A DNA stretch of 60,479 nucleotides from a virus. Below are positions 5,422 through 52,559 of the stretch, piece after piece. Position numbers and translations under genes: made by a program. The stretch spans positions 1 to 60,479 of IMG/VR virus record IMGVR_UViG_3300031569_000005; one strand, given 5' to 3'. The stretch's first letter is position 1, and each line of letters begins with the position of its first letter. The notes under the pieces are model-generated. The model worked only from the letters and a program-made list of their open reading frames with translations, was not told the origin of the DNA and did not search any database.

Positions 5422-6027
5422 TTAAAATTCCCTTATTATTGTTGTAATTAAATTTTCTACTTTAGAATACCTTTGTTGTGCAAGTCTGTTTACTGATTCA
5501 TTTACAGGAGATAAAAAAGCTCCATGAGTCGATGGATTTGAAACAAAGTCAAATGCAACTAATTCAAAATCTGGTTGAACCTCTAATGTTTGACTTCCTT
5601 CGCGCATTACTTCCTTTACGGAACCCATTCCTCTAGATGAAATACCTAATCTTATTCCTGACTTAAATAATTCCTTTAAAATATTTCCAGATGGAGTTCC
5701 TAATACTTCTACTCTACCTACCAAATCATTTCCAGCCCAATTCATATCTAATATGTTATGTGACACATTATTTAAATTAACAACTGATGAATCTGGATGA
5801 TCTAATTCTCCTAAGGCTCTTCTTTCCTTAATAAATGTTCCAGCATATTTTTTTGCTTCACGCATTAATAAGTCTTTTGGATATACTCGTTCATTTTGAT
5901 TTTTTGCATCTGCTCTTTGCAATACACCTGATACAATTAATTTACCATTATTTTCTGTTAATGATTCATTAATTTGTTGTGGTGAAATTTCAAATACTGT
6001 ATAATCTACTAATAATTGTTTGCTCAT
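5422..6027 (-). CDS. 21: Prohead maturation protease, T4 gp21 family
   Basis: The serine protease that cuts scaffold, capsid precursor and internal proteins after (L/I)-x-E motifs during head maturation. The 201-residue protein is typical in length. Conserved elements are GELDHPDSS with His77 and LGISSRGMGS with the catalytic serine at 130 or 131. The N-terminus has INE and LTE sites that may serve self-processing. The ATG at 6027 has AAGGA upstream, and the gene overlaps the stop of a 52-residue gene by four bases (ATGA), so the two are translationally coupled. Confidence 0.93.
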   Translation of the reverse strand: MSKQLLVDYTVFEISPQQINESLTENNGKLIVSGVLQRADAKNQNERVYPKDLLMREAKKYAGTFIKERRALGELDHPDSSVVNLNNVSHNILDMNWAGNDLVGRVEVLGTPSGNILKELFKSGIRLGISSRGMGSVKEVMREGSQTLEVQPDFELVAFDFVSNPSTHGAFLSPVNESVNRLAQQRYSKVENLITTIIREF

Positions 6028-6182: not shown

Positions 6183-6790
6183 TGTGATAATTCCTTAAGT
6201 CTATTTGCTATACGAACCATTCGTTCGTTAATTTTTGAAAATCTTTTTCCGGTGGACTTCCAAAAATGATTTGATTGGACTCCCATTTCTGTTTTCAATC
6301 TTAAATTGTTTGAAACAATTTTTTCCATTTCAGATAACATTTTATTAACTTCATTAATACCTCTGTTAACTTTTTGTGATGGAGTCGATGTAGGATCTTT
6401 TTTATAATCTCTATATGATACTTCATTAACAATACCATACATTTCAGACATCATTTTTTTGTAAGTAGATTTAGATTCCATTTTTTGTGTAGATGTCATT
6501 TTTTTAAATATACGATTTGTTTTTGGAACTTTTTTCATTCCACCTTGGTCTATGGTATCTTCATCTGCATCGCCAAATGCATATGGAGTTTGGTATCCAG
6601 GCACTGATGCCGTTGTACTCATTTCTTCTAACTCATCTTCATCCTTAACTGCTTTGGTAACAGCCTTTCTTCTTGCTTTAAGATATTTATCAGATGCATC
6701 AACATCGCCATCATTATCTATATCATCATCTTCTTTTCCTACTGGATCTAAAGCTTCAAAATATTTTTCTATTTCATCTAATAATTTCAT
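6179..6790 (-). CDS. Head-region protein with an EF-hand/dockerin-like calcium loop
   Basis: A protein of 203 residues. Residues 23-34 (DIDNDGDVDASD) are a textbook EF-hand or dockerin-type calcium-binding loop, with Asp at positions 1, 3, 5, 9 and 12 and Gly at 6, followed by a helix (KYLKARRKAV). Similar loops occur in marine T4-like phages, but no function is known to me. The middle is polar and the C-terminal ~80 residues are basic and helical. Its start overlaps the stop of the upstream gene by one base, and its stop overlaps the next start. Probably a prohead core or internal protein. Confidence 0.72.
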   Translation of the reverse strand: MKLLDEIEKYFEALDPVGKEDDDIDNDGDVDASDKYLKARRKAVTKAVKDEDELEEMSTTASVPGYQTPYAFGDADEDTIDQGGMKKVPKTNRIFKKMTSTQKMESKSTYKKMMSEMYGIVNEVSYRDYKKDPTSTPSQKVNRGINEVNKMLSEMEKIVSNNLRLKTEMGVQSNHFWKSTGKRFSKINERMVRIANRLKELSQ

Positions 6791-7095
6791 TATTGTTGCC
6801 TTTTTAATACATAAATTGCTTTTGCGTTAGAACTAACAACTTTTGTTGGAGATAATTCATATATAGTCCCTACTGATAAATGTGCTATATTTATTGATCC
6901 GCCTCCAGATAAAGTTATTGTTCCTGTTGCACTACTCTCTCCTACTATCACAGCACCATGACCATAATTAGATCCGGTGAAATTAACTGTTGTATTACTA
7001 ACTGTCGTTACTGATGTATATCGACCTGGATGTCCTAGTCTTTCAAAAACATTATAGTTGCTTCCAGATGCTGGCATTATATATGGTCCACTCAT
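6790..7095 (-). CDS. Small beta-rich structural protein (unknown)
   Basis: A protein of 101 residues, almost entirely short beta strands rich in Thr, Ser, Val and Gly (SVTTVSNTTVNFTGSNYGHG, TGTITLSGGGSINIAHL). No signal peptide or membrane segment. Size and composition resemble phage decoration, head-fibre or trimeric surface proteins, but I cannot assign a family. Its ATG overlaps the stop of the preceding gene (ATGA), and AAAAAGGC lies before the next gene inside its 3' end. Confidence 0.65.
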   Translation of the reverse strand: MSGPYIMPASGSNYNVFERLGHPGRYTSVTTVSNTTVNFTGSNYGHGAVIVGESSATGTITLSGGGSINIAHLSVGTIYELSPTKVVSSNAKAIYVLKRQQ

Positions 7096-7931
7096 GAGTT
7101 ACCTGTCTTTTTAAGTTCATTAATAAGTTCATGATAACGAAGTATTGTTAATACATCTTTATCTTCTACAATATGTTTCTTGCTAAGATTACTCAATAAT
7201 TTAGCAACTTCCGTAATTTTTATTCTAACAACTTTACTAGCAATTTTTGTAGTATTTTTTAACAAATCTCGTTGTAATTTTTTTGTTTCTAATATAATAT
7301 ATTTTTTTAACTTTTCTGAATTAGTTACATTATTAATATATTCCCTTAGAACTTGTTTTTGTTTTAATGATAAGGTAGAATACTTTTCATTAAATTTATC
7401 AATAATCATTTTTGATGCTAATATACGTATATCATTGTTTTCAGAAACTAATGTGGTCTTAGCCGTTGGCTTAACTTTTCTTTGTATATATTCTACTACT
7501 TGATATTTAGTTTCAATATAATCCTTAGGATCATCTGCTTGAGCATATTCAAATAATTTGTAAACTGAAGCGTGAATTTTATAATCATGTACTCGTGATT
7601 TAAAAAATTCTTCAATAACAAATTGAGATTTTATATTTTTTATTAAATTATATTTCTCACGTTTTAATTGAGATTCATTAATTTTTTGTCTAGCCGTAAT
7701 AACTGCATCTACAAATTCTATAGATTTTTCATTCATATTGAATGTCTCTTCTTTTAAAGATCTATAAAGTTTTAATTCTGTTGTTAATTCAGAATTTTTT
7801 GTAAAGTGTTTTTTGATAATATTTAATGCCGGTGAGTTCTTGTTAGACATAGTATCGCTTGCTACCTGTCTTACCAATAGTTCGAAAACTAATCCGGTAT
7901 TTTTTACTTTCGAGTGTTTTAATCCATTCAT
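7092..7931 (-). CDS. Conserved T4-like hypothetical protein next to the portal
   Basis: A basic, all-helical protein of 279 residues. The opening (LKHSKVKNTGLVFELLVRQV, then LNIIKKHF) resembles proteins that I recall beside portal and protease genes of marine T4-like phages, without known function. No catalytic motif is visible. It has its own ATATTTATT element upstream and a TAGGAT ribosome site, and it separates gp20 from the small head genes. A core or portal-associated assembly role is inferred from position. Confidence 0.72.
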   Translation of the reverse strand: MNGLKHSKVKNTGLVFELLVRQVASDTMSNKNSPALNIIKKHFTKNSELTTELKLYRSLKEETFNMNEKSIEFVDAVITARQKINESQLKREKYNLIKNIKSQFVIEEFFKSRVHDYKIHASVYKLFEYAQADDPKDYIETKYQVVEYIQRKVKPTAKTTLVSENNDIRILASKMIIDKFNEKYSTLSLKQKQVLREYINNVTNSEKLKKYIILETKKLQRDLLKNTTKIASKVVRIKITEVAKLLSNLSKKHIVEDKDVLTILRYHELINELKKTGNS

Positions 7932-16077: not shown

Positions 16078-19000
16078 TTACTGATCTTCTAATGCCTTCA
16101 ATCTATTTTCCAAGTCTTGTATTTTACCTACCAAACTAGCAATAATAGCTCTTTCATCGATATCCACCGGTACCATTCTATCTGATACTGGATCACTATG
16201 ATCACCCTCATCATTCCAATCCATGTCCGGGCCATATGTTGCAAAATGGGCAGACGCAGATGCCGCTTCTTCTGCTATAAATCCTAAGTATTGATTATCG
16301 TCCGCTGACTGTTTATATTCAAAATATTTGGGTTCAAGATTTAAAACATCATTATAAATACTTGATGATGGTGTTAATATATTCTGTTTTGATTTTCTAG
16401 TTGAAGTTGTATAACTTATCTGTCCGGAGGCATATGAATATCTCACATATGCATTACCGGCGACATTTGCCAATCCGGTAGCAAAATATTTACCGGTAGT
16501 AAATACATCGTCTGTTGTGGTGCCTGCTCTATCCGATGTATTTGTGATATAAAGAGCATATCCGGCTGCTGAAGGTGTATTTGGATCTACACCAATATTA
16601 ATTGTACCATTTGTAGTTTGTAACCCACTATAGAAATTATACAATCCCGACGGGCGTGCAGTACCATACCTAAAGTCAAATGATGAGACGCCTAACAATC
16701 TAAAGTCGTTTGCTGATCTTACAAATTTAAATCTATTACCAGACCTTAAGCTCATTACCCTGCCAGGGCTGGTTCCAACACTTCCTACTGGGCTAGGGCC
16801 ATATTGTACACTGCTTATTGTCCTAGTCTCAAATAGTTGATTAAACCAATCATCATCATCTCCCCAAAATCCATATGAATATCCGGAGGAAACGGAGGAA
16901 ACTCCACATGCAAATAATATTCCGTTGCCAACCGCACCTTCAATTGTTACTTCATGTCCGGCATCACCTGGATAGGCATTTGTTGTTGTATATGGAGTAA
17001 GCATCATTCCAATTGGATACTGTGGGGCATACTCAATACGAAGAGACTGTGCTATTTCTCCGCCTAAAGATCCATCTAATACTAGTCTAGTATAATTTAT
17101 TCCGGATACGGCATATGTTTGGTAATAATCAGTATAATTACCACTTTGAATTTTTATCAAATTATATATAAAATAATCTGCTTTTGCATAATCTGACAAT
17201 GTTATATCTGTAGCAGTAACTGCGCCATCTGAATCTACACTAAAGTTACCTGCGTTAATTTCTAATTTGCCGGCGGTATGATTAAATCTCATATAATTAC
17301 CGCCTAGATTTCCAACTGCAAATTTTGCAGCAGGTCCATCCATTAATATACCATTGGTTGAGGTATATGCATTATTTCCACCAATTTTGATTAATCCGGC
17401 ATCCAAATCCATTTTTGTACCAACGGTGTTGGTCAATGTTACTGATTGTATTGCACCAGTACTAATACCTGCTCCTGATATTGTTGTACCTTGTGATACC
17501 TTTCTAACATTCATTGATTTAACATATAGTTTAACCGATGCTGGAATTCCACTCCATTTTAAAACTATAATACTAAAATATTTGGCAGTGGCAGTTGGAA
17601 TATAGTTTGCATTATAATTTACATATGAAGTTGTTATAGGTCCATTTTCTTCAGTTACAGCACCGCCATTATCAAAAGTCCAACCTCCACCAACATAATT
17701 TGCTGCACTAGTGTTTCTGGTATCTTCTACTGTTCCGGCTTCTGAAGCGCCGGCGTTATGACTTATAGTGTCTTGTATTCCTGTGAGTTCTGAATCGTAT
17801 TCATATATTCTAATATACAATCCATTGGCATCATTGGCAGTTGCTTTTAGGGTCAATTTAATTTTATAATTTTGTTGAACTTCTATAGGAAATGCATGAG
17901 AACCTATACCAATTGTATTAACTGAAGCATTAGATAATTCTACTATACTACCATTACCATCACCTAAATCTGTAGATTTAAGATTACTAGTAATAGGATA
18001 TGCATATACAGTTTTCCATCCACCTGGTCTGCCATCTGATGCTAATACATGTCCTGTTGGGTTGCCAAATAATTCCCCGGCTGATGAATTATATCCACCT
18101 TGAACCGTAATTTGACCTTTAACTGCTAATGTAGTTCCATCCCATTCTAATTTAGTATTGGGAGCATCTGTACCACCTAACTTAAATGTTCCATCATTCA
18201 GATTAAATTGTGAACCTGCCGATGTCGTTAGGTTTGTTGATTCTAATATTCCGGTACTAATACCATTACCTGATATTGTTGTTGTGGCTGGCTGGCCATT
18301 AACTGCCCATGATTTGAATTTAAAGTTACTATATCCATTACCGCCGGTCATTCCATACCAAGACGCTCCTAGATGTAAAACAGGATAACTAGCATATCCG
18401 GCAACTGCTCCGGCATAAGTTGGTGCCGTAAAATCACCATTTTTATATGCTGCATACTCAAATCCACCATCCGTTAAAGCTTTAACTCTAAATCTCCATG
18501 AATCTCCAACTATCAAAACACTATTTGCTATGGTTACATATGCCATGGTACCGGATGTATTTTTATAATAAAACTTCAAGTGAGCACCATGGCTATAAAT
18601 CATACCTGCGCCATTGGGATAAAGAGGAGACCCAGGTAACCAAAATCCATACATGGTTAATCCGGAGGTGCTGGTATTCATAACTTCAAAATCCATTATC
18701 AATGTTAATCCATCGGCCTTAGTAAGACCTACATTTGATATGATGCCACCATTCCAATTGGTGGATCCAGCATTCTGTCCAAATTGCATACCGGTTGTAG
18801 TTGCTGACTGTTTTGTATTGTTTAATGTCCATACTCCAGTATCCAATGTCTGACTACCATTCCCGGTAAAGTCATATGCAAAGCTTTGACCTGAAGCAAA
18901 ATCTTCTGGATTGGTTATTGATAAACTACCAGTCATTCCTAATGTTGTTCCATTCCAAGATAATTTAGGTGAACTACCGCCTCCTAATTTAAACGTGCCG

Positions 19001-22000
19001 GCATCTAAATCAAATTCTGATCCTGCCGTAGAACTAAAGTTTGCTGATACTAATTTTCCGGTTGATATTCTGTCTCCGGATATATTGGTTGAACTTGGAG
19101 GACCGGTTGGCATATTAAATAATGCTGCCATATTATTAGCTGTCAATACAGAATTATATATTCTAAATTCTGATATATATCCGGAAAAATCATCTGTTGG
19201 AGCTCCACCGGGGGAGTCAAGTTCTCCACCAAGTATCATTTCATCACAATTTGCAAATTGAGAAGTATTCACATTGGCATTGGTAAAGTTTCCTTGCAAT
19301 TCGCCATCTACATATAATTTTGCTTGTGCCCCATTTTCAGCAACAATACCAACATGTCTCCAAGTGTTGGTAAATTCTTTACTTGATGTTGTTATTTCTC
19401 CGAGATTAACTGCATTTATCATAAGGTATACCTTATTATTGCCTCCATTGTAGTCAATAAAGAAAATATATTTATTTAGCGCGCTATTACCAGAAGCTTG
19501 ATGTATTCCAAATACTGCTTGGCTAGCGGTGGTAGTTTTCTTGATCCAAAATGCTATTGAAATATCCATATTTGCAGTTAAGTCTAATGCAACTTGATCT
19601 AGATGAATTACTGAGTCGGTTCCATCAAATTGAGCTGCTCCCGGGACTGGGCCAGCTGTTGTTCCAGTTACAAATGTTGTTCCACCACTTATACCATCAG
19701 CATCTGCATTACCATTTCTATTATTACCTGAAAAGTCTAGAACTCTGAAATAACCGGTATTAGCCCTTACCTGTCCAGCTAATGGAAAATATGCAAATAG
19801 ATTTGTATCATCGGGCAAATCATTTTCTAATGCAAAATCGCCTGGATTGGTTACTGTTATGTCTCCGTTAACCACTACATTACCGGCGCTGTTAACTGAG
19901 AAGTTATCAGAATTAATTTCTAATTTGCCAGCAGTATAATTAAATCTCATATAATGGCCGCCGGCATTACCAACTGCAAATCTTGCATTCGGCCCATCCA
20001 ATAAAATACCATTACCACTTGCATATGCATTAGTACCACCAATTTTCATAAGGCCGCCATCTAATTGCAATTCAGTACCTTGTCCAGTTGATAAATTATT
20101 TGATTTGATACTACCAGCTTTAATTGCATCACCACTTATTCTGGTCGAGCCTCCTCCATTGTTAATTTCTGTTACTCGTATATAATCAATTAATGTGGTT
20201 GCGACTTGGTTACTTAACCCAGCTATAAACACTGGAGCTAGATAACCATCCATGTTATTACTATGTGCTTTTGCAGGAGATGTAATATCTCGTGCTTCTC
20301 CGCCGGCATTGGACGAAGCCGTACCTTGCAGATACCCCTTCATTATTTTCCAGTCGTCTAATTCAGCTTTAGTTTCTCCGGAAGCTGCTATATAAAGTAC
20401 CGAGCTAAAAGTATCTGCACCGGTGGCATTTGACTTTGTAACACCATCTTTTCGATATCCAGAGAATCCAGCATAAAATAGTGGGTTGCCGTTAGCTTGA
20501 GGTACTTTAGCTCTAATTTCTACTTCATACAAAGATGTTTCATTGAATGGAATTAATTGATTACTAGTACACCACAAATAATCGCTGCCATTATTAGATC
20601 CTACTTGTAAATAGCCTCCTGTAAATTGTCCTGCGTAATCTGTTTTAACAGCTGTATCAGCTAAACCGGTTGCAATATAAGGAAAAAATCCAATGCCGGT
20701 ACCATCTGTTTTTGGTGCATCTGGCTGACTCACAACTGTATTTGAATTGTTTGTATATGCACTCCAATCTTCAAAAAATACCACATTACCTGCTCTTGGC
20801 AATCCTTGAAAATCAACATCTCCTGATATTGTGATATTACCATTAGATCCACTTATGAATTGTGAATTTGTACTACCTAAGAAAAATTTATCAACATCGA
20901 CCCTAGCATTAGATCCACTTATTAATAATGATTTATCTCCATTATTCCATGCAAAATATCCTCCGGATGGAGTTGACGAGCCACTTGCACCGCCTCCTAG
21001 ATAAAAACTTCCTCCAGCATCTAAGAATGATGTAAAATCTCCTAATGTAGCATTTCTATATGGAGCATCTCCTGCACTAATAGGTCCATGAAAACCAAAT
21101 ACATTGGATGTCATTAATAAACCTGAAGATAATCCGCCTTCTGTATTAATTTGTGATAATGATCCAGATAGAAAACTAAAACTAGGTCCTGTTGCTCCTG
21201 CTGCTCCTGCTGCTCCCGGTTGACCTGCAGCGCCGGCGTCAGCTCTACTAAATGAATATGTCTTTGTAAGTGTAGCACCTCCCTGCGCATTATCAATAAT
21301 TGTAATTACAGCTGTTCCAGTATCTGCAGATACTCCAGTAGGGATAAACTTTCTTTGATTGCTTACTATATTATTTGATAATGTAATACCTGTTTGTGTT
21401 TTTGATGTTCTGTAAGTGTTAGTACCATATGGTGCTGAAGCGTCTAATGTGTATTGAGTAGTTCCTTTGAATACTCTAACCTCAGTTGCGCCGGCTGCCA
21501 AATCATTACTACTTACATTTCCACTGGCATCGGCCGGGAATGTATGAGATTCATTTGTTAAGAATACGGTATATGCATCTGCCCCTGCCGCTCCTGGAGC
21601 TCCAGCTGTTCCATCAGTTCCGGAAGATCCTCCTTGAACTTTAAATATTGTTGTAGAATCTGTTAATCCATCTTTAGTAACACTTATTGTTAACGGTAAA
21701 TTTGTTTTTTGGCCTTGAAGGCCACCATCTGTTGTTTCTGCACCATATGATAACGACCCAGACGATATACCACTATATAAATTATTTGATACAGTTACAC
21801 TTCCAGATGCAACCTTGAATCCAGTAATTGTAGTACTTCCGGAAATAATTGTAATATCACTAGGAGTTATTACACCACTTAAATTTTGTTGTGCTATATT
21901 AACTGTTATAGCTGTAGGCGATGCTACATTTGACGATGCTGATGCAAATGAAAATATCTGAGAATCTGTAGTTAATATTAATGATTTTGCAGTATTTGAA

Positions 22001-25000
22001 GCAGTTGCCTCATTTATCGCATCTTGAACATTTTCGCCCGATTCTAATCTTAATTGTCCTCTAACTACTAATGCAGACCCATCCCATGTTAATTTATTAC
22101 CTAATGAAAAATTAGATCCAGAATCAACATAAAATCCAGTATTGGAATTGGCATGAACTCCATTTCCGATAAACAATTTACTAGACTCCATTTTTATGCC
22201 GGCAATAGAACCTGTATTAGCTATTATACCTCCTTGAAGAAATACATTGGTAGTTGCTAATCCAAATCCTGGAGAAGAACTTCCAAATACATATTTTGAA
22301 TTTGCTAATCCTTTAAGGTCTCCTAATCTTACTTTCAAGTCTACATCATAAACTCCAGATCCGGTTCTTTCAACTATATCCATATATGGAGTTGCTTGGT
22401 TGTTTGGATTTGCATTTAATCTAATATATCCCGTACCTATTTTCCCTGTTGATACAATAACTTGAGATCCACTATAAGATTGTGCACCACCTGGAGTGTC
22501 TCCTAATGATGCTGATGGCCCGACTGGGAATGAATCTCCATATCCTCTAGTAAGGAATAATTCTCCTGAAAGATCTGTTTCGCTTCCTTGGTTATTTCTA
22601 GATGCAGATATTACTTTTACATATTCAGTACTAAATCCAGTATTAGATACTTTCTTTAAAGATAAAATTTCATCTGTAGAAAATCCTGAAACATTAACAA
22701 CTGACATTGTTGCATCTGTAGCAAAATAATTTCCTGATGGTCTAGCAGCTGATGATGTTAATGCTGTGGAATTTGCTACATATAATTGACCACCAACCGC
22801 ATTAACTGTTTCTTTTTCAAATACTGCAGTTGATAATGTTCCTCTAATTTTTGCATTTTCAAATTCAGCAAATCCATTAAAGTCTGCGGATATTTTCCAT
22901 CCTTTCAAATCAGATGCATAATCTGATGTTTGTATACTTCCTGCCGAATCTATTACTATATTACTACCGGTAATTTTAGTAGAACTTATACCAAAGCCTC
23001 CTATAACTCCTTCGGTAGCTTTTAATCGACCAGCTAAATCGACGTTGAATGGCGCATCTGCAAACGTTGCATGTCCAAGTTGAATTCCCTCATCCCCATC
23101 TGCAATAAAAATGCTATTGCCAGATCCTAAAGTTATTCTTTTACCGGACGGATTCAATTCAAAATTAGTTGCTGTAAGTGTATTTGCGCCTAATGTAAAT
23201 CCGCCTATTGTTCCCGATGTGGCTTTTAATACACCGGCATTAGTTACACTAAATGGAGCACTTGAAAATGTTTCATTACCCATCTGAATTCCGGTCTGTG
23301 GAATTAATGCTATAAAGGTATTGCCTGAACCGCCACTTAATTGACCCGGTGTCATTGTAAAGCCGCCTATTTTACCACCAATAAATAATGCTTTAGATCC
23401 AGTTACTTGGCCACTAGCTTTTAATATTAAGTCATTGGTAGTAGAATTGATTTGTGTACTTGATAATTGGAATCCTCCAATTGTTCCCCCATCAAACTGT
23501 ACTTTTGATCCTGTTACTTGGCCAGATGCTTTTAATCTTAGATTATGTACATTTCCATCTAATGGAGATTTAATTTCTTCTGTGTTAACTACAAATCCTG
23601 CTATAGATGCAGATGCAAATTTTGCAAACCCGAATTGATCTATGGAAGATGATGCATTTGCTTGAGTGGATGCCTGGCCATTAATTAATGCTGGCGTAAA
23701 TATTTGATTTGCTGTTACTGAACCTTCTATTACTACTCCGCCAGTAATTCTTCCACCTGATAATAAAACTTTTGATCCTGTTATTTCTCCCGTATCCTTT
23801 AAAACTAAACTTGCTAAATCACTTGATTTAATTGCTGCACTATCTATTGTAAATCCAGCAATTTTTGAAGTTCCATTACCATCTAATTCAACAGCGTAAT
23901 TTCCAGATCCATCTCCAGAGAATCCAGCTGTGCCTGAACTAGATATAAATGATCTTGCATTGGCTTTAGTTGTTCCGGCTGGTGTAAATATTTCGTCTAC
24001 AGACAGATCTCCTTTTACAACTAAATTAGTGCCATCATATTGCACATATTGATTAGTTGCTTTATCACCAAACAATACTTTGGAAGCTGATATCTGTCCG
24101 CTCGACTTAAGTTGAACTGCTCCGGTACTGGATTTTATAGTAGTTGTATCAATTTCAAATCCTGCAATCTTTGATGTTCCGTTTCCATTTAATTCAACAG
24201 CATAATTTCCAGCTGTGTCTCCAGAAAATCCCGCTTCGCCCGAACTAGATATATATGATCTTGCATTGGCTTTAGTTGTTCCAGCTGGAGTAAATAATTG
24301 ATTTACGGATAGGTCTGCATTTATTATAGCATCTGCGCCAATTATTAATTTATTCTCTTGGGGATCTAAATGAAATATAGATGAACTAATTTCTATATTT
24401 CCTCCTGAACCACTTATAAATTGTGTATTAGTTGTTCCTATAAAAAACTTTTCTGCTTTTATATCAACAGATCCACCGTTTTGTGTTGTAAATATAAAAT
24501 GACTATTATCATTATCTCCAACCAATTGCATTCCAACGCCTTCATAAGTATCAACGCCTAAAGTCATGCTATTAGATCCGGAGTAAATTAAGAATCCACC
24601 AGGTGATGTTCCGGTTTTAGTATTTGTAAATCCATCATATCCTATAGATCTAATAAATCCGGAGCTAACTCCCGCTAATTCTATTCCAGAGTTAATAGTA
24701 TTACCTATATAAACAGATCCTGTTAATAAGTTATCAGTACCTTCAATATATGTATTATCACCATCAAATACTGCTCCATATGCAAATGTTTCTAAATCTG
24801 CTTTACTGCCTACAGTATCAAAATATAAAAATTTAAATGTTAACGGAGTATTCATGTGCTCAGTCGGAATACGTTTTGCAACTCTTACATAGTTTGGACT
24901 AAATCCCGTTTCTTTATCTGCTAATATTTGTATATCAGAAATAATAAATCTACCCATACGAGTTACAAATTTCAAATCTAATGGGTCATTTGTGTTAGAT

Positions 25001-27051
25001 GTAAATTGAAATTGTACATTTGTAATTATGCTAGGCGTCGTATCTGTAAATATAGTTCCTATACGTGATCCTAGAGGGCCTTGATCTCTGTAAATATTAG
25101 TTAATGTATTTTTCCATAACGGATGAATAGATGGATTGCCTATTAGTATTTCTGAAATTGGACTATCTTGTGTTATATCGCCATTAACATATATATCTAG
25201 CCTAGGAGTTTTTAGTCTAGGATCTCTTGCAGAATATAATCCGATATCCGGATGGGTTGCAATTTTAAATGATACAACGTATGTTGTATCTGTATAAAGA
25301 TTGGGTCTATATTCAGGTATTATTTCAAGTGCTGCTCCTGAGTTATTAAAAGCTGTATATTGGTTAGTGACAGTACTAGACCAATTTACATCCATATCTA
25401 TACCACCCATTAATGTATCAGTGTCATATCTTGGCGTTATTGATGCAATTCTAGGGTTTAGAGTAGATGGACTTTTTTTACTGGCAGACCAATAATTGTT
25501 AATTTCTTCTAAAGATTCTAATGTTCCAAAATTTTCATAAAATGAGCCGACAACAACATTTGTTTCAAATGCATTTTCGTCAATTAATATGTTTTGCTGT
25601 TCTAATATAGTATCTCCAAGATCTTGAAAATCTCCAAATTGTCCGGATGGTTTATATAATGTTTTAACTCTATATACATCTCCTGTTTTTGGTTCTGTAT
25701 CTGCAATAATAATATCAGCAAAACTAGATGAATTTTCGGTAAAAATTACTTCAGAAGGTTTTATAAAACTTGCGGTAACATTTGTTGCTGTAAATGAAGT
25801 AATAACTAATGTTGTTGACTGAAACACTTTAGATGTAGCAGTTTCGTTCGATACTCTGCTATCACTACTTGGATTCGGTGCTTTAGAATTAGCTATTAGT
25901 ATCGGTACTTGAAATGCTCCAAATGTATTTTCTGCATCATGTTTAAATCCAGATATTTGAGATAGCTTTCCACTCGTGGAGCTAAGCACAGTTCGGAGAT
26001 TAAATACATATGAGCCACTTAATTCAATATCAGCTGCCGAGCCAAGTTGTGCAACTGCTTCATTTTCTTGAGATCGTGGAAGTGCTCTGCCATGGACATC
26101 TGTTTTTGTTCCCGCAGGTGCTGATATTATCGGATGTACTACCTTGATATCAAATGTCTCCATTGATCTAGATAAAGGGAAGTTTGTAGTTCTAAATATC
26201 GACTCTCCGGATACTGTCACAACTGTATCGGATACTGTTGTTTTGCCCGCGGAAGAATCTAACTGACCTTTTACAGCATTTGTTCTTAGAACAGAGGTTC
26301 CAACAGATTTGTTCGGAGAATTTCTAGATGTCTGTCCTTGAGTCACTGGTGGATTCGACGGCCCGGCAACCGCGGCTGCTGCAGATGCTCCTCTTAATAC
26401 AGGCGCTTCTATTGCCGGTGCTGTTGTATTCGATACTGGTGACTGACTAGTTATTGTTACTGAACTATTAGAAGTAGATACTTCAGTAAAAACATTAAAT
26501 AATTCGAGTGGTTGTCTGTAAGGCTGAACAATTTCTGTTATGGTAACTGATGGCTGTTTTGTAAAAATAAGTTCAGTGGTATTTGTACTACTCGGCGATA
26601 CTATTACTTCTCGTTGCCATAATACATTAGGTATATTATAAAAGTTTGGATCTGCAGGATCGTTACTAAATGGTATTGATTGGCCGGGTCTGTAAACACC
26701 GGTTTCAATTATAGATCTTTCTAATCTTGCTGCAACATTAACTGTAGCAACTCCTGGACATGTTTCTGGATATATGTATACTGCAACAACTCTTGTTCCA
26801 TCTTTTTCTAAATAATTTAATGGTTCGTAGTATATTGGATCTCCATTATAATCTACAATATCTATATATACTTTACAGTTATCAACGAATCGAACATTCT
26901 GCATACGAATTTTAAATAAATTCTTGCCGGCTGTAAGTTTATCCGGAAAATCTACTATTCCAAATAACCTATTAGATGTGGGCGATCGATCAATATAATC
27001 GTATTCAAATTTTTCTAAATTAAATAATTCTGCTTTTTTACGTATCGACAC
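16078..27051 (-). CDS. Giant tail fibre with LamG and C-terminal S74 chaperone domains
   Basis: A receptor-binding or side-fibre protein of 3657 residues. An N-terminal ~800-residue region of beta domains is followed by a long shaft of near-repeats (FTPAGTTKANARS and NGNGTSKIAGF modules, then several VTGSK/GGF units). Two collagen-like runs follow (GTDGTAGAPGAAGADAY and AGAAGQPGAAGAAGATGP). A LamG-type lectin fold and four repeats of the LDAGTFKLGG/MKIGG type come next. The C-terminus is a peptidase S74 intramolecular chaperone with STRKSKQNI (Ser3550 aligned to the SDxRLK motif) and a final coiled coil. The start is GTG, supported by TAGGAG seven bases upstream. Host specificity is inferred. 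Confidence 0.93.
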   Translation of the reverse strand: MSIRKKAELFNLEKFEYDYIDRSPTSNRLFGIVDFPDKLTAGKNLFKIRMQNVRFVDNCKVYIDIVDYNGDPIYYEPLNYLEKDGTRVVAVYIYPETCPGVATVNVAARLERSIIETGVYRPGQSIPFSNDPADPNFYNIPNVLWQREVIVSPSSTNTTELIFTKQPSVTITEIVQPYRQPLELFNVFTEVSTSNSSVTITSQSPVSNTTAPAIEAPVLRGASAAAAVAGPSNPPVTQGQTSRNSPNKSVGTSVLRTNAVKGQLDSSAGKTTVSDTVVTVSGESIFRTTNFPLSRSMETFDIKVVHPIISAPAGTKTDVHGRALPRSQENEAVAQLGSAADIELSGSYVFNLRTVLSSTSGKLSQISGFKHDAENTFGAFQVPILIANSKAPNPSSDSRVSNETATSKVFQSTTLVITSFTATNVTASFIKPSEVIFTENSSSFADIIIADTEPKTGDVYRVKTLYKPSGQFGDFQDLGDTILEQQNILIDENAFETNVVVGSFYENFGTLESLEEINNYWSASKKSPSTLNPRIASITPRYDTDTLMGGIDMDVNWSSTVTNQYTAFNNSGAALEIIPEYRPNLYTDTTYVVSFKIATHPDIGLYSARDPRLKTPRLDIYVNGDITQDSPISEILIGNPSIHPLWKNTLTNIYRDQGPLGSRIGTIFTDTTPSIITNVQFQFTSNTNDPLDLKFVTRMGRFIISDIQILADKETGFSPNYVRVAKRIPTEHMNTPLTFKFLYFDTVGSKADLETFAYGAVFDGDNTYIEGTDNLLTGSVYIGNTINSGIELAGVSSGFIRSIGYDGFTNTKTGTSPGGFLIYSGSNSMTLGVDTYEGVGMQLVGDNDNSHFIFTTQNGGSVDIKAEKFFIGTTNTQFISGSGGNIEISSSIFHLDPQENKLIIGADAIINADLSVNQLFTPAGTTKANARSYISSSGEAGFSGDTAGNYAVELNGNGTSKIAGFEIDTTTIKSSTGAVQLKSSGQISASKVLFGDKATNQYVQYDGTNLVVKGDLSVDEIFTPAGTTKANARSFISSSGTAGFSGDGSGNYAVELDGNGTSKIAGFTIDSAAIKSSDLASLVLKDTGEITGSKVLLSGGRITGGVVIEGSVTANQIFTPALINGQASTQANASSSIDQFGFAKFASASIAGFVVNTEEIKSPLDGNVHNLRLKASGQVTGSKVQFDGGTIGGFQLSSTQINSTTNDLILKASGQVTGSKALFIGGKIGGFTMTPGQLSGGSGNTFIALIPQTGIQMGNETFSSAPFSVTNAGVLKATSGTIGGFTLGANTLTATNFELNPSGKRITLGSGNSIFIADGDEGIQLGHATFADAPFNVDLAGRLKATEGVIGGFGISSTKITGSNIVIDSAGSIQTSDYASDLKGWKISADFNGFAEFENAKIRGTLSTAVFEKETVNAVGGQLYVANSTALTSSAARPSGNYFATDATMSVVNVSGFSTDEILSLKKVSNTGFSTEYVKVISASRNNQGSETDLSGELFLTRGYGDSFPVGPSASLGDTPGGAQSYSGSQVIVSTGKIGTGYIRLNANPNNQATPYMDIVERTGSGVYDVDLKVRLGDLKGLANSKYVFGSSSPGFGLATTNVFLQGGIIANTGSIAGIKMESSKLFIGNGVHANSNTGFYVDSGSNFSLGNKLTWDGSALVVRGQLRLESGENVQDAINEATASNTAKSLILTTDSQIFSFASASSNVASPTAITVNIAQQNLSGVITPSDITIISGSTTITGFKVASGSVTVSNNLYSGISSGSLSYGAETTDGGLQGQKTNLPLTISVTKDGLTDSTTIFKVQGGSSGTDGTAGAPGAAGADAYTVFLTNESHTFPADASGNVSSNDLAAGATEVRVFKGTTQYTLDASAPYGTNTYRTSKTQTGITLSNNIVSNQRKFIPTGVSADTGTAVITIIDNAQGGATLTKTYSFSRADAGAAGQPGAAGAAGATGPSFSFLSGSLSQINTEGGLSSGLLMTSNVFGFHGPISAGDAPYRNATLGDFTSFLDAGGSFYLGGGASGSSTPSGGYFAWNNGDKSLLISGSNARVDVDKFFLGSTNSQFISGSNGNITISGDVDFQGLPRAGNVVFFEDWSAYTNNSNTVVSQPDAPKTDGTGIGFFPYIATGLADTAVKTDYAGQFTGGYLQVGSNNGSDYLWCTSNQLIPFNETSLYEVEIRAKVPQANGNPLFYAGFSGYRKDGVTKSNATGADTFSSVLYIAASGETKAELDDWKIMKGYLQGTASSNAGGEARDITSPAKAHSNNMDGYLAPVFIAGLSNQVATTLIDYIRVTEINNGGGSTRISGDAIKAGSIKSNNLSTGQGTELQLDGGLMKIGGTNAYASGNGILLDGPNARFAVGNAGGHYMRFNYTAGKLEINSDNFSVNSAGNVVVNGDITVTNPGDFALENDLPDDTNLFAYFPLAGQVRANTGYFRVLDFSGNNRNGNADADGISGGTTFVTGTTAGPVPGAAQFDGTDSVIHLDQVALDLTANMDISIAFWIKKTTTASQAVFGIHQASGNSALNKYIFFIDYNGGNNKVYLMINAVNLGEITTSSKEFTNTWRHVGIVAENGAQAKLYVDGELQGNFTNANVNTSQFANCDEMILGGELDSPGGAPTDDFSGYISEFRIYNSVLTANNMAALFNMPTGPPSSTNISGDRISTGKLVSANFSSTAGSEFDLDAGTFKLGGGSSPKLSWNGTTLGMTGSLSITNPEDFASGQSFAYDFTGNGSQTLDTGVWTLNNTKQSATTTGMQFGQNAGSTNWNGGIISNVGLTKADGLTLIMDFEVMNTSTSGLTMYGFWLPGSPLYPNGAGMIYSHGAHLKFYYKNTSGTMAYVTIANSVLIVGDSWRFRVKALTDGGFEYAAYKNGDFTAPTYAGAVAGYASYPVLHLGASWYGMTGGNGYSNFKFKSWAVNGQPATTTISGNGISTGILESTNLTTSAGSQFNLNDGTFKLGGTDAPNTKLEWDGTTLAVKGQITVQGGYNSSAGELFGNPTGHVLASDGRPGGWKTVYAYPITSNLKSTDLGDGNGSIVELSNASVNTIGIGSHAFPIEVQQNYKIKLTLKATANDANGLYIRIYEYDSELTGIQDTISHNAGASEAGTVEDTRNTSAANYVGGGWTFDNGGAVTEENGPITTSYVNYNANYIPTATAKYFSIIVLKWSGIPASVKLYVKSMNVRKVSQGTTISGAGISTGAIQSVTLTNTVGTKMDLDAGLIKIGGNNAYTSTNGILMDGPAAKFAVGNLGGNYMRFNHTAGKLEINAGNFSVDSDGAVTATDITLSDYAKADYFIYNLIKIQSGNYTDYYQTYAVSGINYTRLVLDGSLGGEIAQSLRIEYAPQYPIGMMLTPYTTTNAYPGDAGHEVTIEGAVGNGILFACGVSSVSSGYSYGFWGDDDDWFNQLFETRTISSVQYGPSPVGSVGTSPGRVMSLRSGNRFKFVRSANDFRLLGVSSFDFRYGTARPSGLYNFYSGLQTTNGTINIGVDPNTPSAAGYALYITNTSDRAGTTTDDVFTTGKYFATGLANVAGNAYVRYSYASGQISYTTSTRKSKQNILTPSSSIYNDVLNLEPKYFEYKQSADDNQYLGFIAEEAASASAHFATYGPDMDWNDEGDHSDPVSDRMVPVDIDERAIIASLVGKIQDLENRLKALEDQ

Positions 27052-27076: not shown

Positions 27077-27085
27077 TATAAATAT
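27077..27085 (-). promoter_or_regulatory. Candidate late promoter element for the giant fibre
   Basis: Sense ATATTTATA followed by TAAAAGAATT, 25 bases before the GTG start at 27051 and touching the stop of the Mre11-Rad50 fusion. Confidence 0.5.
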
Positions 27086-30000
27086 TACTCATAGTTGATT
27101 CTAGAGTATCCGTTAGACTTTTTGATTTCAATAAGTTTATCAACTACATCTCGCATGGTATCAATATGAGAAATACACATGATAAATCCAAATTGAGATT
27201 TTAAATAATCGAATAATAAATGTATATTGTTTATGTTCTCAGAGTCTAAGACTCCAAATCCTTCATCTATTGCTAAGAAATTTGGCCTAGGCAAACTAGT
27301 TATATTAATTAATGATGTTCTTATTGCTAATGATGCAATAAATTTCTCCATACCTGATGTTAATTCTAATGGCCAAAAATTGTCATCATCATATATAATA
27401 TATCCATTAATATTTTTGCCATCAGTTTTTAATATCATATTAAAATCCACAACTTGAGTTAATATATTGTTAACTTCAGTTTCTATTTGCGGTAATGCTT
27501 TTGATATCAATTTATAAGGAACGCCATCTCTTTTAATGGACTGTAAATAATATTCATATCCTTTATATTGTTTTTCTAATTCAGATAGTCTTTCAATTGA
27601 TTCAATTGACTGCCTTTTAGATTCCTCTGCAACTTGTATCTTACCTGTTATTGTTCTTAAATTAAATTCTAAATTGGATATTTGATCTGTCAAATCATCA
27701 CGTTCAGATATCACATCATTAATATCTCGTTGTTTTTGTAAATTAAATTTTATATCTGCTTCATGTTGTTTAGATTCATTTAATTTTTCTGTAGCTGATT
27801 CTATTAATGTGTCATATAATTCAATTTTCGAAAGACATGCATTTAAATTTTGTTGTTCACTATCACGTTGATTATTAATATATGTTATTGATGATTGAGT
27901 TTCGTTAATAACTTCTAAACTATCATACGCATGTGATTTCAATATAACTTCTTCATACTCTGATTTTTTTGATATGATTTCAAATAATGCATTTTCTAGT
28001 TGAGGTAATTCGTCTGCCGCTTTTTGTGTATCTTTGAGCCATGGATTTGCCATACAATATTCACAGTCTTTATCCCATTTATGATCATCTAATTTTGATA
28101 CCATACGTCTGGCATGAGTAATTTTTGTATTTATTATTCTAGACTTATTATCGAACTCATTAATCATTCTTGTATATGATTCTAATAATTCAATTTCTTT
28201 TTCTATAGCCAATTTATCATACGAATTTAATTCCAATTGTAATGAACCTAAGTTTGTATCATATTTTTTAATTATATTTAAATGATCATCTTGTAAAGAA
28301 TTAAATTCATTTAAGGAACTAGTTAGTTCATTAATTTTTATTTGGGCAGCTTCCGGTGTTAAAACATCATCAGATATAGTTTTTAGTTCTGACGTCAATG
28401 TTACAATAATATCATTTAAATCATTAAACATGTTGGTATGTTCCAACTTTTCTTGTTTCATACGATTATATGAAGGTGTAAGTTGATTTATAACTTTTTC
28501 TGATTCTGATAATGTTGTAGCATAATCATTACGTTTATATTCTCTAATTAATGCCGATGTATCTCTTATGTCTTCTGCTGCTATTTGATATTGCTTTTCA
28601 AATACATCGATATCTAAAAATTGAGTTAATAATTCTTTTCGTTCTCTTTGTGACTTATCAATAAATCCAGTATTATTGTTTTGTAATGATAATGCAGTTA
28701 ATATAAAATCGTCATACGAGCCAATATATTTTTTAATAATTTTATTGGTACTATCTCGTTGATCGCCATTTAATAAAATTTTATCACCATTATTGTCTAG
28801 TGTCCAGAAATTTACAATTACTTTTACATGGCCATTAGATTGTTTTTTGCCATCACGTTCTATATAATATTGCTTACCATCTAATTCAAAATTAAATTTA
28901 CAATAAAACATAGATTTTTTATTATTTAAGACGTGAGCTGCTTTTACTGTTCTAGAACATCTGTCAAAACAACAAAATGCCAATGAATCTAATAATGTTG
29001 ATTTACCACTTGCATTAGCTGCAAATACTCCGTTAACGCCATGTATATTTGTGAAATCTATTTTATTATCTTCTCCGTAACTAAACATATTAGAAAATTC
29101 AAAATACTTAGGAATCCATGTAACATTACGTGTCAATTCTGAATCTGTTAATTTGGAGTGAACGGTCCTATTAATATGACGTACGCAATCTAACATTGTT
29201 TCTGATAAAGCTTTGTTATCTACTAGATATTCCGTTATAACATTATTCTGCCATTCTACATCTCTAACATTTCCAAATGATATTTTTTGTGCATTTACAT
29301 CTTCGTTTAGTGTATGGACTTTCTGAACACTAATTTCTTGTACTTTATATTTAGTACGTATACTCGATATAACCTTTTTTAGTTGACTAGATGACGTACT
29401 TTTAACTTTTAGTCGTAACCTAGGTCGTTTCGGTATTTTATTAGACGGATTTAATATTTTACCATTTTCTATTTCAAATGTATAATATCCATAAAGATTT
29501 TTTATTTCTACAAATTTAGAAGTTAATGAAGGAATGTCCCATTCTAGTATTCCATGTAATAATCCCTCTCCATGGTTTTGTTGTATTAAACTGCCGGCAT
29601 ATGCTATAGTTTTTTCATCATTTAAAAATTGAGCTGGTTTATGAATATCACCTAATAATGTTAAATCATGTCCTTTAAATAAATCTGTTGTCACATGGTC
29701 ATTTGATATACGAAATCCTATATCTGTTACTGCAGAATTAACAGCTCCATGATGTAATGCAATCTTAATATCCCCTTCAAAATCAGAAGCTTTTATATAA
29801 TTTACAGGCTTTTCAAACACCGACATTACATTGAAGTGTATGTTCGAAATACAATATACATCATTGTCTTTAAGATAATGTAAGTCTGGGTGGTTTAAGG
29901 CTTTAACTATGGGAGACAAGGCATCTAAACGGTTAGAGTTATTTAAGTTACAATCGTGATTACCGGTGATCAATAATGTAGGTGCTAAATCTGCTAATTT

Positions 30001-30234
30001 TTTAAAAAAATCTGAAACTTGATATACTAATTCTGGAGACATATCTGTTTTTGCATGTACTATATCACCGGCTAAGTATATTATACTATTTTTAGTTTTA
30101 TTTTTTTTAATATATGTATATAACTGTTTAAATACATGTACATATTCTTTATGACGATTAACATTACGTATATGCACATCTGCAACATGAAATATTTTAT
30201 CTATCTTATCTATCCTTATATCTATAACGCGCAT
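27085..30234 (-). CDS. Single-chain Mre11-Rad50 (gp47-gp46) recombination nuclease fusion
   Basis: DNA-end-processing nuclease and SMC-type ATPase in one 1049-residue chain; in T4 these are two proteins, gp47 and gp46. Residues 1-~300 are a metallophosphoesterase with DVH (19-21), GD (56-57), GNHD (91-94), HHG (161-163) and GDIH (195-198). The Rad50-like part has Walker A FAANASGKS (404-412), long coiled coils around a CEYC zinc hook (724-727), signature LTSGMEKF (958-965) and Walker B FLAIDEGFG. All key residues of both enzymes are present and no frame break is visible. Its start overlaps the primase gene by 13 bases. It probably creates 3' ends for recombination-dependent replication. Confidence 0.93.
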   Translation of the reverse strand: MRVIDIRIDKIDKIFHVADVHIRNVNRHKEYVHVFKQLYTYIKKNKTKNSIIYLAGDIVHAKTDMSPELVYQVSDFFKKLADLAPTLLITGNHDCNLNNSNRLDALSPIVKALNHPDLHYLKDNDVYCISNIHFNVMSVFEKPVNYIKASDFEGDIKIALHHGAVNSAVTDIGFRISNDHVTTDLFKGHDLTLLGDIHKPAQFLNDEKTIAYAGSLIQQNHGEGLLHGILEWDIPSLTSKFVEIKNLYGYYTFEIENGKILNPSNKIPKRPRLRLKVKSTSSSQLKKVISSIRTKYKVQEISVQKVHTLNEDVNAQKISFGNVRDVEWQNNVITEYLVDNKALSETMLDCVRHINRTVHSKLTDSELTRNVTWIPKYFEFSNMFSYGEDNKIDFTNIHGVNGVFAANASGKSTLLDSLAFCCFDRCSRTVKAAHVLNNKKSMFYCKFNFELDGKQYYIERDGKKQSNGHVKVIVNFWTLDNNGDKILLNGDQRDSTNKIIKKYIGSYDDFILTALSLQNNNTGFIDKSQRERKELLTQFLDIDVFEKQYQIAAEDIRDTSALIREYKRNDYATTLSESEKVINQLTPSYNRMKQEKLEHTNMFNDLNDIIVTLTSELKTISDDVLTPEAAQIKINELTSSLNEFNSLQDDHLNIIKKYDTNLGSLQLELNSYDKLAIEKEIELLESYTRMINEFDNKSRIINTKITHARRMVSKLDDHKWDKDCEYCMANPWLKDTQKAADELPQLENALFEIISKKSEYEEVILKSHAYDSLEVINETQSSITYINNQRDSEQQNLNACLSKIELYDTLIESATEKLNESKQHEADIKFNLQKQRDINDVISERDDLTDQISNLEFNLRTITGKIQVAEESKRQSIESIERLSELEKQYKGYEYYLQSIKRDGVPYKLISKALPQIETEVNNILTQVVDFNMILKTDGKNINGYIIYDDDNFWPLELTSGMEKFIASLAIRTSLINITSLPRPNFLAIDEGFGVLDSENINNIHLLFDYLKSQFGFIMCISHIDTMRDVVDKLIEIKKSNGYSRINYE

Positions 30235-31148
30235 AAAATCTTTTCTTCAATTAATTTTTCTTGAGATAATTTATATGTATTATCTATCATTTCTTGTATT
30301 TTCTCAAATCCCATTTCACTTGGATCTGAATCCGGTAGGTCTACTAAATGTACATCTATACCATTTGCTATAAAATACTCACATGCTTCTAATGCTTGTT
30401 TCTTTGCATCATTATCTAAGCATATATAAATTGTTTTAACATTACGTTTTACTATACGCATTTTTAATGTATTGGATATTGTCTTACCAAATAATGGAAT
30501 GGCATTCCTTTTAATAGCAATTGCATCAAATGCGCCTTCTACTAATATTATTGGCATATTCCAGTTTATATGTAATTCAAATCCTATAATATCTTTTGAC
30601 ACTCCTGGATTTTTATGTTTCCAAGCATCTTCTTCGTAATATGCACGAGATACGAAATAATTTAAATTACCATTTGCATCATGACTAGGAATAATAATTT
30701 TTCCGGAGAATAATCCAGAATCTGCATAACCTATTCTATATTTTAAAATATCATAGATATCTATATTCCTATTTCTAAGATAAAATACTGCATTTCGATA
30801 TTCTGGCGATCCTTTATCAAAATGCCATAGTGGTCGGAATTCTTTAGGTAAGGTTAAAACTTCTGTATTAGTTGTTGTTTTACTAGGTAGGTGGTCTACA
30901 TCGTTAGTTAATTGAATAAGTTTAGATATTTTTTGTCTATCTACATTTAATTTTTTTGCAAGAACTATAATTTTCCTGCCACTAGCATTACAAACCCAGC
31001 AATGCCAATGTTGTGATGATACATTAACTTCCAATTTCTTCTTCTGATGGTTACAGAATGGACAATGGAATGCAATATTATCATTTGAATTTACTTTACC
31101 AGAACCTAAGATTGTTTCCAGTAACGTAATTATCGCAAATTTACTCAT
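30222..31148 (-). CDS. DnaG-type DNA primase (zinc finger + TOPRIM)
   Basis: Synthesises RNA primers for replication; the 308-residue protein is compact, like T4 gp61 (342). The N-terminal CHC2-type zinc ribbon has CPFC (about 30-33) and CWVC (about 51-54) with NVSSQHWHCW between. The TOPRIM domain carries VEGAFDAIA and the ICLDND acidic pair. No helicase domain is fused, so a separate helicase must lie elsewhere. It is co-transcribed with the Mre11-Rad50 fusion (13-base overlap). A weak host-like promoter may lie upstream. Confidence 0.88.
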   Translation of the reverse strand: MSKFAIITLLETILGSGKVNSNDNIAFHCPFCNHQKKKLEVNVSSQHWHCWVCNASGRKIIVLAKKLNVDRQKISKLIQLTNDVDHLPSKTTTNTEVLTLPKEFRPLWHFDKGSPEYRNAVFYLRNRNIDIYDILKYRIGYADSGLFSGKIIIPSHDANGNLNYFVSRAYYEEDAWKHKNPGVSKDIIGFELHINWNMPIILVEGAFDAIAIKRNAIPLFGKTISNTLKMRIVKRNVKTIYICLDNDAKKQALEACEYFIANGIDVHLVDLPDSDPSEMGFEKIQEMIDNTYKLSQEKLIEEKILCAL

Positions 31149-31267: not shown

Positions 31268-31675
31268 TCAAGCCTTTAGCCAACTTTCTGGAACATTTTT
31301 TTCTGCCCATACAATTCCGTGTTTATCACACCAATCGCCATATGTTGTTTTAGAACCCTTACGTATCTTAGTTTTAGCTGATTGAAATACTAATCGAATA
31401 TCTAATTCTGGGTGTTGTTGTTTTATTAATAAATGTTTTTTGCGATCCTCTATAACCCATCTTCCTTTTGTTTCTACTAAAATGCCATTAGGCAATGTGA
31501 AATCAATAGTATATTTATGATGTGTTTCTGGCTTAATATAATTGATTACAGTATCTTCATACCCGAATTTTATTTTTTGTTCTGTTAACTGATCTGAAAC
31601 TTTATGTTCAAATCCAGATCTATAACCATGCTTAATTGCATTTACTCGTACTTTAGATTTTGATCTCCACGACAT
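31268..31675 (-). CDS. T7-type endonuclease I, Holliday-junction resolvase
   Basis: A branched-DNA resolvase of 135 residues that matches phage T7 gp3 almost along its whole length. The four metal-binding residues align with a constant shift of three: Glu23, Asp58, Glu68 and Lys70 (T7: 20, 55, 65, 67). Signature segments are YRSGFEHKVSDQL, LPNGILVETKG, DRKKHLLIKQQHPELDIR and CDKHGI. T4 itself uses the unrelated endonuclease VII (gp49) for this step. It lies next to primase and Mre11-Rad50, consistent with recombination, and has its own ATATTTATA element 13 bases upstream. Confidence 0.95.
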   Translation of the reverse strand: MSWRSKSKVRVNAIKHGYRSGFEHKVSDQLTEQKIKFGYEDTVINYIKPETHHKYTIDFTLPNGILVETKGRWVIEDRKKHLLIKQQHPELDIRLVFQSAKTKIRKGSKTTYGDWCDKHGIVWAEKNVPESWLKA

Positions 31676-50129: not shown

Positions 50130-50750
50130 TTATATTATTTGATCAATTACGCCATATTCTAATAACTCTTCTGGCGTTGCAAAAAAGTCTGTTTTCATTT
50201 TATCTTTCCACCAACTAGCATCTTTTTTAGTTTTGGTTTCTAATAACTCATAGACAATATTTTCTATTGTTTTTACATTATCTACATATGCTGATATATC
50301 TCCCATCTTACCACCTATAAAACTAGATGATTGATGAAACATTACTGATGAACGTTTACTTGACATTCTTGTTCCGGTACCGTGTGCTAATAATATTGCT
50401 GCAGCTGAAAATGCTTTTCCTCTACATATGGTATTAACTTTAACGGAAAGTGATTCAATATAATCAACTAATCCTAACATGTCATATACATCTCCTCCGT
50501 CAGAGTTAATTATAACATTAATAGGATCATCTTTTGTTTTTTCATCACGATTTGAAATAATAGATCTTACTTTAATCATAAAATCTACCATCGATTCACT
50601 TGTAATATCACCATTCAGGTAAATAACAGAATCATCATAATCGACTAAGTTAGATAATATATCTGATAGTTTTGAATATGGACTATCAATATCATCTTCT
50701 TTATCGTCTTTTTTAGTTGTAGCCTTTGGCTTTTCTTCATATAAACTCAT
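50130..50750 (-). CDS. ClpP-like serine protease
   Basis: A ClpP/crotonase-fold peptidase of 206 residues, close to bacterial ClpP in length. The triad is readable: Ser115 in GKAFSAAAILL, His139 in SSVMFHQSSS and Asp177 in TKKDASWW. The oxyanion region is NSDGGDVYDM. The N-terminal ~28 residues are a charged, phage-specific extension. No Clp ATPase gene is nearby, so it may work with host ClpX/ClpA-type partners or act alone. The host-like promoter lies only three bases before the ATG and no ribosome site exists, so translation is probably leaderless. Confidence 0.9.
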   Translation of the reverse strand: MSLYEEKPKATTKKDDKEDDIDSPYSKLSDILSNLVDYDDSVIYLNGDITSESMVDFMIKVRSIISNRDEKTKDDPINVIINSDGGDVYDMLGLVDYIESLSVKVNTICRGKAFSAAAILLAHGTGTRMSSKRSSVMFHQSSSFIGGKMGDISAYVDNVKTIENIVYELLETKTKKDASWWKDKMKTDFFATPEELLEYGVIDQII

Positions 50751-52388: not shown

Positions 52389-52559
52389 TTAGCTAATTGT
52401 TACTCTGTCAAATACAAATTTTAATTTTCTTCTTATCTCTGTCAATCTACGTGTTGCTTCATTTGTATCAACTGCTTGTTTAGATGCTAAATCTGTCAAT
52501 ATGAATATCATATTATCAATTTCATCTAACTCTCTTAAAACGTTATCTTTATCTTTCAT
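52389..52559 (-). CDS. Unknown 56-residue helical protein
   Basis: A short gene, ATG 52559 and TAA 52389-52391, encoding MKDKDNVLRELDEIDNMIFI and a second helix ending in KLKFVFDRVTIS. It overlaps the end of the UV endonuclease gene by 11 bases and precedes the membrane protein by three bases. An ATATTTATA element lies 24 bases upstream within the UV-endonuclease coding end. Function unknown; position and coding fit support it as real. Confidence 0.6.
   Translation of the reverse strand: MKDKDNVLRELDEIDNMIFILTDLASKQAVDTNEATRRLTEIRRKLKFVFDRVTIS

Follow-up and report, generated by a model that had tools for sequence, protein, structure and literature searches.

The window analysed here, 60,479 nucleotides of viral DNA (IMG/VR record IMGVR_UViG_3300031569_000005, positions 1 to 60,479), carries on its minus strand, at 27085-30234, a gene whose product is identified, with support from its sequence, from profiles and from its fold, as a fusion of Mre11 and Rad50 (SbcD and SbcC). 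The gene is one uninterrupted frame of 1049 codons with an ATG start and no internal stop, and the fusion is real and, as judged from its sequence, functional-looking. It very probably encodes a phage single-chain Mre11-Rad50 (SbcCD-type) enzyme of the described family of fusions like R555 of Mimivirus. The parts of the gene and its two upstream neighbours are as follows.

27085..30234, minus strand: Mre11-Rad50 (SbcD-SbcC) fusion gene; 1049 aa, ATG start, stop at 27085-27087
29530..30234, minus strand: Mre11/SbcD-type phosphoesterase, residues 1-235, placed by the Pfam match and the metal-ligand positions; boundary approximate
29284..29529, minus strand: capping domain, approximately residues 236-317, with a modelled strand-helix-strand at 270-306; boundary approximate
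29149..29283, minus strand: helix-loop-helix (HLH), residues 318-362, with modelled helices at 326-341 and 345-360; strongly conserved
29119..29148, minus strand: linker, residues 363-372; 10 residues in 40/40 sequences checked
28606..29118, minus strand: Rad50 N-terminal ATPase lobe, residues 373-543; variant P-loop AANASGKS
27535..28605, minus strand: antiparallel coiled-coil arms, residues 544-900, modelled as helices 544-715 (with breaks) and 731-900 that flank the zinc hook
28054..28065, minus strand: zinc hook C724xxC727, between the two helical arms; invariant in 40/40
27088..27534, minus strand: Rad50 C-terminal ATPase lobe, residues 901-1049; signature TSGME, Walker B FLAIDE, D-loop and H1023
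30222..31148, minus strand: DnaG-like primase (CHC2 zinc finger and Toprim), overlapping the start of the fusion gene by 13 nt
31268..31675, minus strand: phage endonuclease I (T7 gp3 type, Holliday-junction resolvase family); PF05367, E 3.3e-57

The joining of Mre11 and Rad50 in one polypeptide, as claimed in the first-pass annotation, was confirmed by the single frame and by Pfam, PHROG and profile searches that found both halves. Metallophos (calcineurin-like phosphoesterase) matched residues 13-200 (E 2.6e-8) and AAA_23 residues 381-585 (E 2.6e-11), each above the curated Pfam cut-off, and the SbcC-like PHROG family phrog_77 spanned residues 278-1048 (E 1.1e-50). When a profile of 40 relatives was compared with solved structures the matches came in the expected order, Mre11 and then SbcC/Rad50, with the T. 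maritima Mre11 matching the first 95 residues (E ~1e-7, precisely 9e-8) and SbcC/Rad50 chains the Rad50 half (best E 2.7e-27). An AlphaFold2 model built with 40 sequences (mean pLDDT 80, pTM 0.44, heads of low confidence) showed the cap unit at 270-306, the HLH helices (326-341, 345-360), a first Rad50 strand starting at residue 374, and two coil arms with a hook; the modelled arrangement of the domains (pTM 0.44) is too uncertain to establish a contact between HLH and coil. Fold matches in the PDB were Mre11-Rad50 complexes on the Mre11 side (4o43, 3tho_B) and on the Rad50 side (7zr1, 7yzp_C), and the low TM-scores and high rmsd of whole-chain Foldseek comparisons are expected if the coil arms are placed differently.

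Such fusions are already known, both as a published family and in a published neighbourhood. Yoshida, Claverie and Ogata described in 2011 an Mre11/Rad50 fusion in Mimivirus (R555) and twelve others, and the known fusions span Mimivirus, a Bacillus phage, plasmids, bacteria and eukaryotes (PMC3175470). R555-like genes were found to be abundant in aquatic viral metagenomes and viral size fractions, viral-like genes, among them primases of phages and endonucleases of the T7-gp3 type, were present on 40 of the 68 GOS scaffolds with database hits, and many of the R555-like GOS scaffolds were proposed by the authors to be phage, the fusion in environmental viruses being confirmed at that time on a few long scaffolds only (PMC3175470). 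The rarity implied by the first-pass annotation, which had noted that T4 and almost all cells keep two proteins, is not supported, in view of the phage and aquatic fusions published in 2011 (PMC3175470) and of IMG/VR, in which at least 599 stretches matched two peptide patterns and at least 587 encode a relative. The search for further fusions that it had proposed also found them in Microcystis phage Mel-JY01, in gp288 of Sphingomonas phage PAU and in the uncultured phage LR756501.

R555, compared here through its published description, resembles the window protein in the order Mre11 then Rad50, in the retained cap and HLH and in a short linker, but is 1351 aa long against 1049 aa. It also shares two replacements in the nuclease, GDxxH (His for the third Asp of DxH...GDxxD...GNHD) and Asp at the position of Pyrococcus His206 (PMC3175470). 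The best viral fold matches were giant-virus proteins (Tupanvirus, Harvfovirus, Catovirus), several of them named DNA repair protein or exonuclease and headed by a Tupanvirus protein (1319 columns, 27% identical); proteins of the Tenacibaculum phages pT24 and PTm1 were also among the fold matches. T4 gp46/gp47, SbcC/SbcD and Rad50/Mre11 have the same domains, motifs and inferred role in DNA-end resection, but the T4 proteins and their cellular counterparts are two separate chains whereas the window protein is encoded in a single frame. Judged by the best fold matches and by the pair of nuclease replacements in common, the closest kin appear to be R555-type fusions and not the T4 proteins, so the name gp46/gp47 given at first pass was right about the Mre11-Rad50 identity and loose as a label. 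The R555-like aquatic homologues lay on short metagenome scaffolds, likewise with phage primases and T7-gp3-like endonucleases, whereas here they lie on long tailed-phage contigs. What is added is genome context, since the fusion is present here in some hundred phage-type frames and in the complete genome of one cultured phage, mostly with a fixed gene order. The understanding of the Mre11-Rad50 system is unchanged by the finding, and structural or biochemical studies could find a convenient subject in a single-chain Mre11-Rad50.

All five phosphoesterase motifs reported at first pass were found (D19xH21, G56D57xxH60, G91N92H93D94, H161H162 and G195D196xH198), two of them in substituted form (GDxxH and GDxH), and the metal-ligand positions D19, H21, D57, N92, H93, H161/H162, D196 and H198 are all filled and invariant in 40 sequences. 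The Walker A, zinc hook, signature and Walker B motifs said to lie in the same frame were likewise all located, with the amendment that Walker A starts with Ala and not Gly; the ATPase motifs read ANASG410K411S412 (P-loop), TS960G961ME (signature), FLAID990E991 (Walker B), D997 (D-loop) and H1023. GKS, Q518, C724/C727, S960-G961, D990-E991, D997 and H1023 are invariant in the Rad50 half of the 40 relatives, the functions of Q518 and H1023 being presumed from position and family knowledge. There are therefore three departures from the textbook motifs: GDxxH stands where two-chain forms usually have GDxxD, GDxH where they have GHxH, and Ala where their P-loop begins with glycine (PMC3175470; partly general knowledge). 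H60 and D196 are invariant in 40/40, D196 standing in place of the His ligand of motif V, and residues 405-412 (A-A/P-N-A/T-S-G-K-S) form a family-wide Walker A variant in which the first glycine is alanine in all 40. Nuclease and ATPase activity are only assumed, given this alanine and the Asp in motif V, and no biochemistry of any member of the fused family was found. It is unlikely that the fused enzyme, with its invariant P-loop alanine and fixed 10-residue linker, is under ATP control unlike that of two-chain SbcCD; if it were, the fusion would be a functionally distinct end-processing machine and not a tethered copy of the usual one.

The most likely role of the protein is that of a single-chain equivalent of SbcCD and gp46/gp47 that readies phage DNA for recombination-dependent replication by resecting its ends. 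In this enzyme family a Rad50 dimer holds the DNA end like a clamp and ATP hydrolysis then lets Mre11 cut, and since the unfused complex is already 2:2 the argument that fusion would fix a 1:1 stoichiometry is a weak one. Two fused chains would pair head to head at Rad50, lobe to lobe at Mre11 and hook to hook, and so form the usual 2:2 machine. Its metal-dependent cutting of DNA ends would be controlled by the binding and hydrolysis of ATP, and the 3' single-stranded tails left behind would serve recombination-dependent replication and end repair, as is thought for T4 gp46/gp47. These T4 proteins are believed to resect ends for recombination (PMC3016280), and their end resection has also been tied to recombination-dependent replication (PMC3175470). 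By analogy with T. maritima, the HLH at 318-362 may be the Rad50-binding element of Mre11 (PMC3175470). In the T. maritima complex the gap between the C-terminus of Mre11 and the N-terminus of Rad50 is ~28 angstrom, equal to 9-12 residues (PMC3175470), and the window protein retains cap and HLH and then has a linker of 10 residues, inside that span. Since the HLH is intact and the linker short, fused chains that dimerise should act like the two-chain complex. A constraint on the geometry of the complex had been anticipated at first pass, but the kept HLH and 10-residue linker suggest that the fusion ties an existing contact and imposes no new geometry.

A working complex composed of fused chains together with a free Rad50 half, made from an internal start, is very unlikely. 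ATG codons do occur at residues 347 and 383, but neither is preceded by a clear Shine-Dalgarno sequence, M347 is not conserved, and M383 belongs to the conserved motif NMFSY in the early part of the ATPase lobe, so a product started there would lack the first strand. A search for promoter-like patterns gave nothing above chance expectation.

The gene order endonuclease I - primase - fusion is conserved. Of the 122 loci with at least 1 kb upstream, 110 have the primase next to the fusion gene and 113 have endonuclease I on its upstream side, counts that are not all independent because the loci of two viral scans partly overlap. These neighbours bear on the suggestion that the protein is an SMC-like part of a defence or counter-defence system, similar to LmuB of Lamassu, and not phage replication machinery. 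The PADLOC LmuB model does match the Rad50 half (E 2.9e-23) and Lamassu structures were among the fold-search matches, but LmuB is itself a Rad50 relative and such a match is expected, the phrog_77 and SbcC models match equally well or better, and the neighbours conserved in most loci are primase and endonuclease I, with no match to LmuA or LmuC among them; a defence role is accordingly given only the slightest chance. The contig also carries portal, terminase, major head protein and baseplate wedge genes, a set consistent with a contractile-tailed phage. Among cultured phages the portal is closest to those of Mel-JY01 and Flavobacterium phage immuto. Immutovirus, which ranks next among cultured relatives when portal and primase are compared, has no detectable AAA_23 or phrog_77 gene and is therefore uninformative on the origin of the fusion.

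The junction near residues 290-380, singled out for checking at first pass, proved real. Compared with the relative L003 it has zero amino-acid changes (dN 0.000 at dS 0.46), the coil being the fastest-evolving region in this comparison, and in the fetched loci 108 non-redundant related frames span residues 250-430, 90 of them full length. Seven fetched loci were without a single frame over these residues (L044, L049, L050, L051, L053, L054 and L109). The junction stretch is truncated by the contig end in L049, L050 and L051, and in the metagenome contigs L044 and L109 the fused gene is broken by a single in-frame stop, near residue 268 and near residue 340 respectively; an intact fused copy exists that is 99.5% identical to L109. 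That two adjacent genes were merged by an assembly or sequencing artefact, through loss of the separating stop or frameshift, can be practically discounted, for although the window is a metagenome contig, L044 and L109 contain a stop and Bacillus phage SBSphiJ5, a distant relative, has the two genes side by side, the junction is crossed by all 108 frames, purifying selection is continuous through it, the linker is constant in length, the copy close to L109 is unbroken and the complete genome of a cultured phage, Mel-JY01, has the same fusion. A sequencing error hiding a stop was likewise rejected, on selection across the junction and on the independent contigs.

Separate gp46 and gp47 genes elsewhere in the genome, which at first pass had been named as evidence that would speak against the fusion, were found neither in the 60-kb contig, probably a partial genome, nor in Mel-JY01. 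The single Metallophos and single AAA_23 matches of the contig are both the fused gene; because the contig is probably partial, a second SbcCD could lie outside the window. The complete 190-kb genome of Mel-JY01 gave a single Metallophos match and a single full SbcC-like match, both within the fused gene, and two further phrog_77 matches that are weak and partial; neither Mre11 nor Rad50 was found there as a gene of its own. The Mel-JY01 protein (WWT39521.1) is 44% identical over 99% of the window protein and is annotated 'AAA domain containing protein', for its AAA half only. A DnaG-like primase lies upstream of its gene, as does a protein annotated as GIY-YIG, and no endonuclease I was detected beside it. 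Some other relatives have extra small stand-alone phosphoesterases, which are not SbcD-plus-SbcC pairs.

More distant likenesses were also found. PAU gp288 and LR756501 have Metallophos and Rad50-like halves in one chain but are only 21-27% identical to the window protein over the matched part, and Bacillus phage 0305phi8-36 has the two halves fused without the cap/HLH region (PMC3175470). In SBSphiJ5 (L054, 2920-6000) the nuclease and ATPase genes are separate with 105 bases between them, possibly a picture of the unfused arrangement. In L053 (LR756508.1, a 484-kb uncultured phage) an insert of ~0.9 kb (6656-7570) lies near residue 200, soon after the GDIHK metal-ligand motif, and holds an ORF of 305 aa whose product combines a TnsA-like endonuclease domain (PF08722, E 5.8e-6) with Cys-rich repeats resembling zinc ribbons; no Rfam match to an intron was found in this interrupted copy, so the insert may be either an intron that escaped recognition or a homing-type insertion that is free-standing. 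Plasmid relatives amounted to one weak match, and bacterial and archaeal genomes to one contig, in a MAG. This 11-kb contig (L136, CALBOT010000005.1), binned in a Candidatus Nitrosopelagicus MAG, encodes the same fusion at 59% identity and is probably a mis-binned phage contig, possibly hinting at a host.

Elsewhere in the window, directly downstream of the fusion gene (16078-27051), lies an ORF listed with a GTG start for a protein of 3657 aa with repeated stretches, probably a giant tail fibre or adhesin. The contig has two different head-maturation-protease-like genes, at 5422-6027 and 50130-50750 (phrog_207; phrog_94/ClpP-like), and a phage-encoded UV-damage endonuclease UvdE at 52549-53601 (PF03851, E 5.6e-52).
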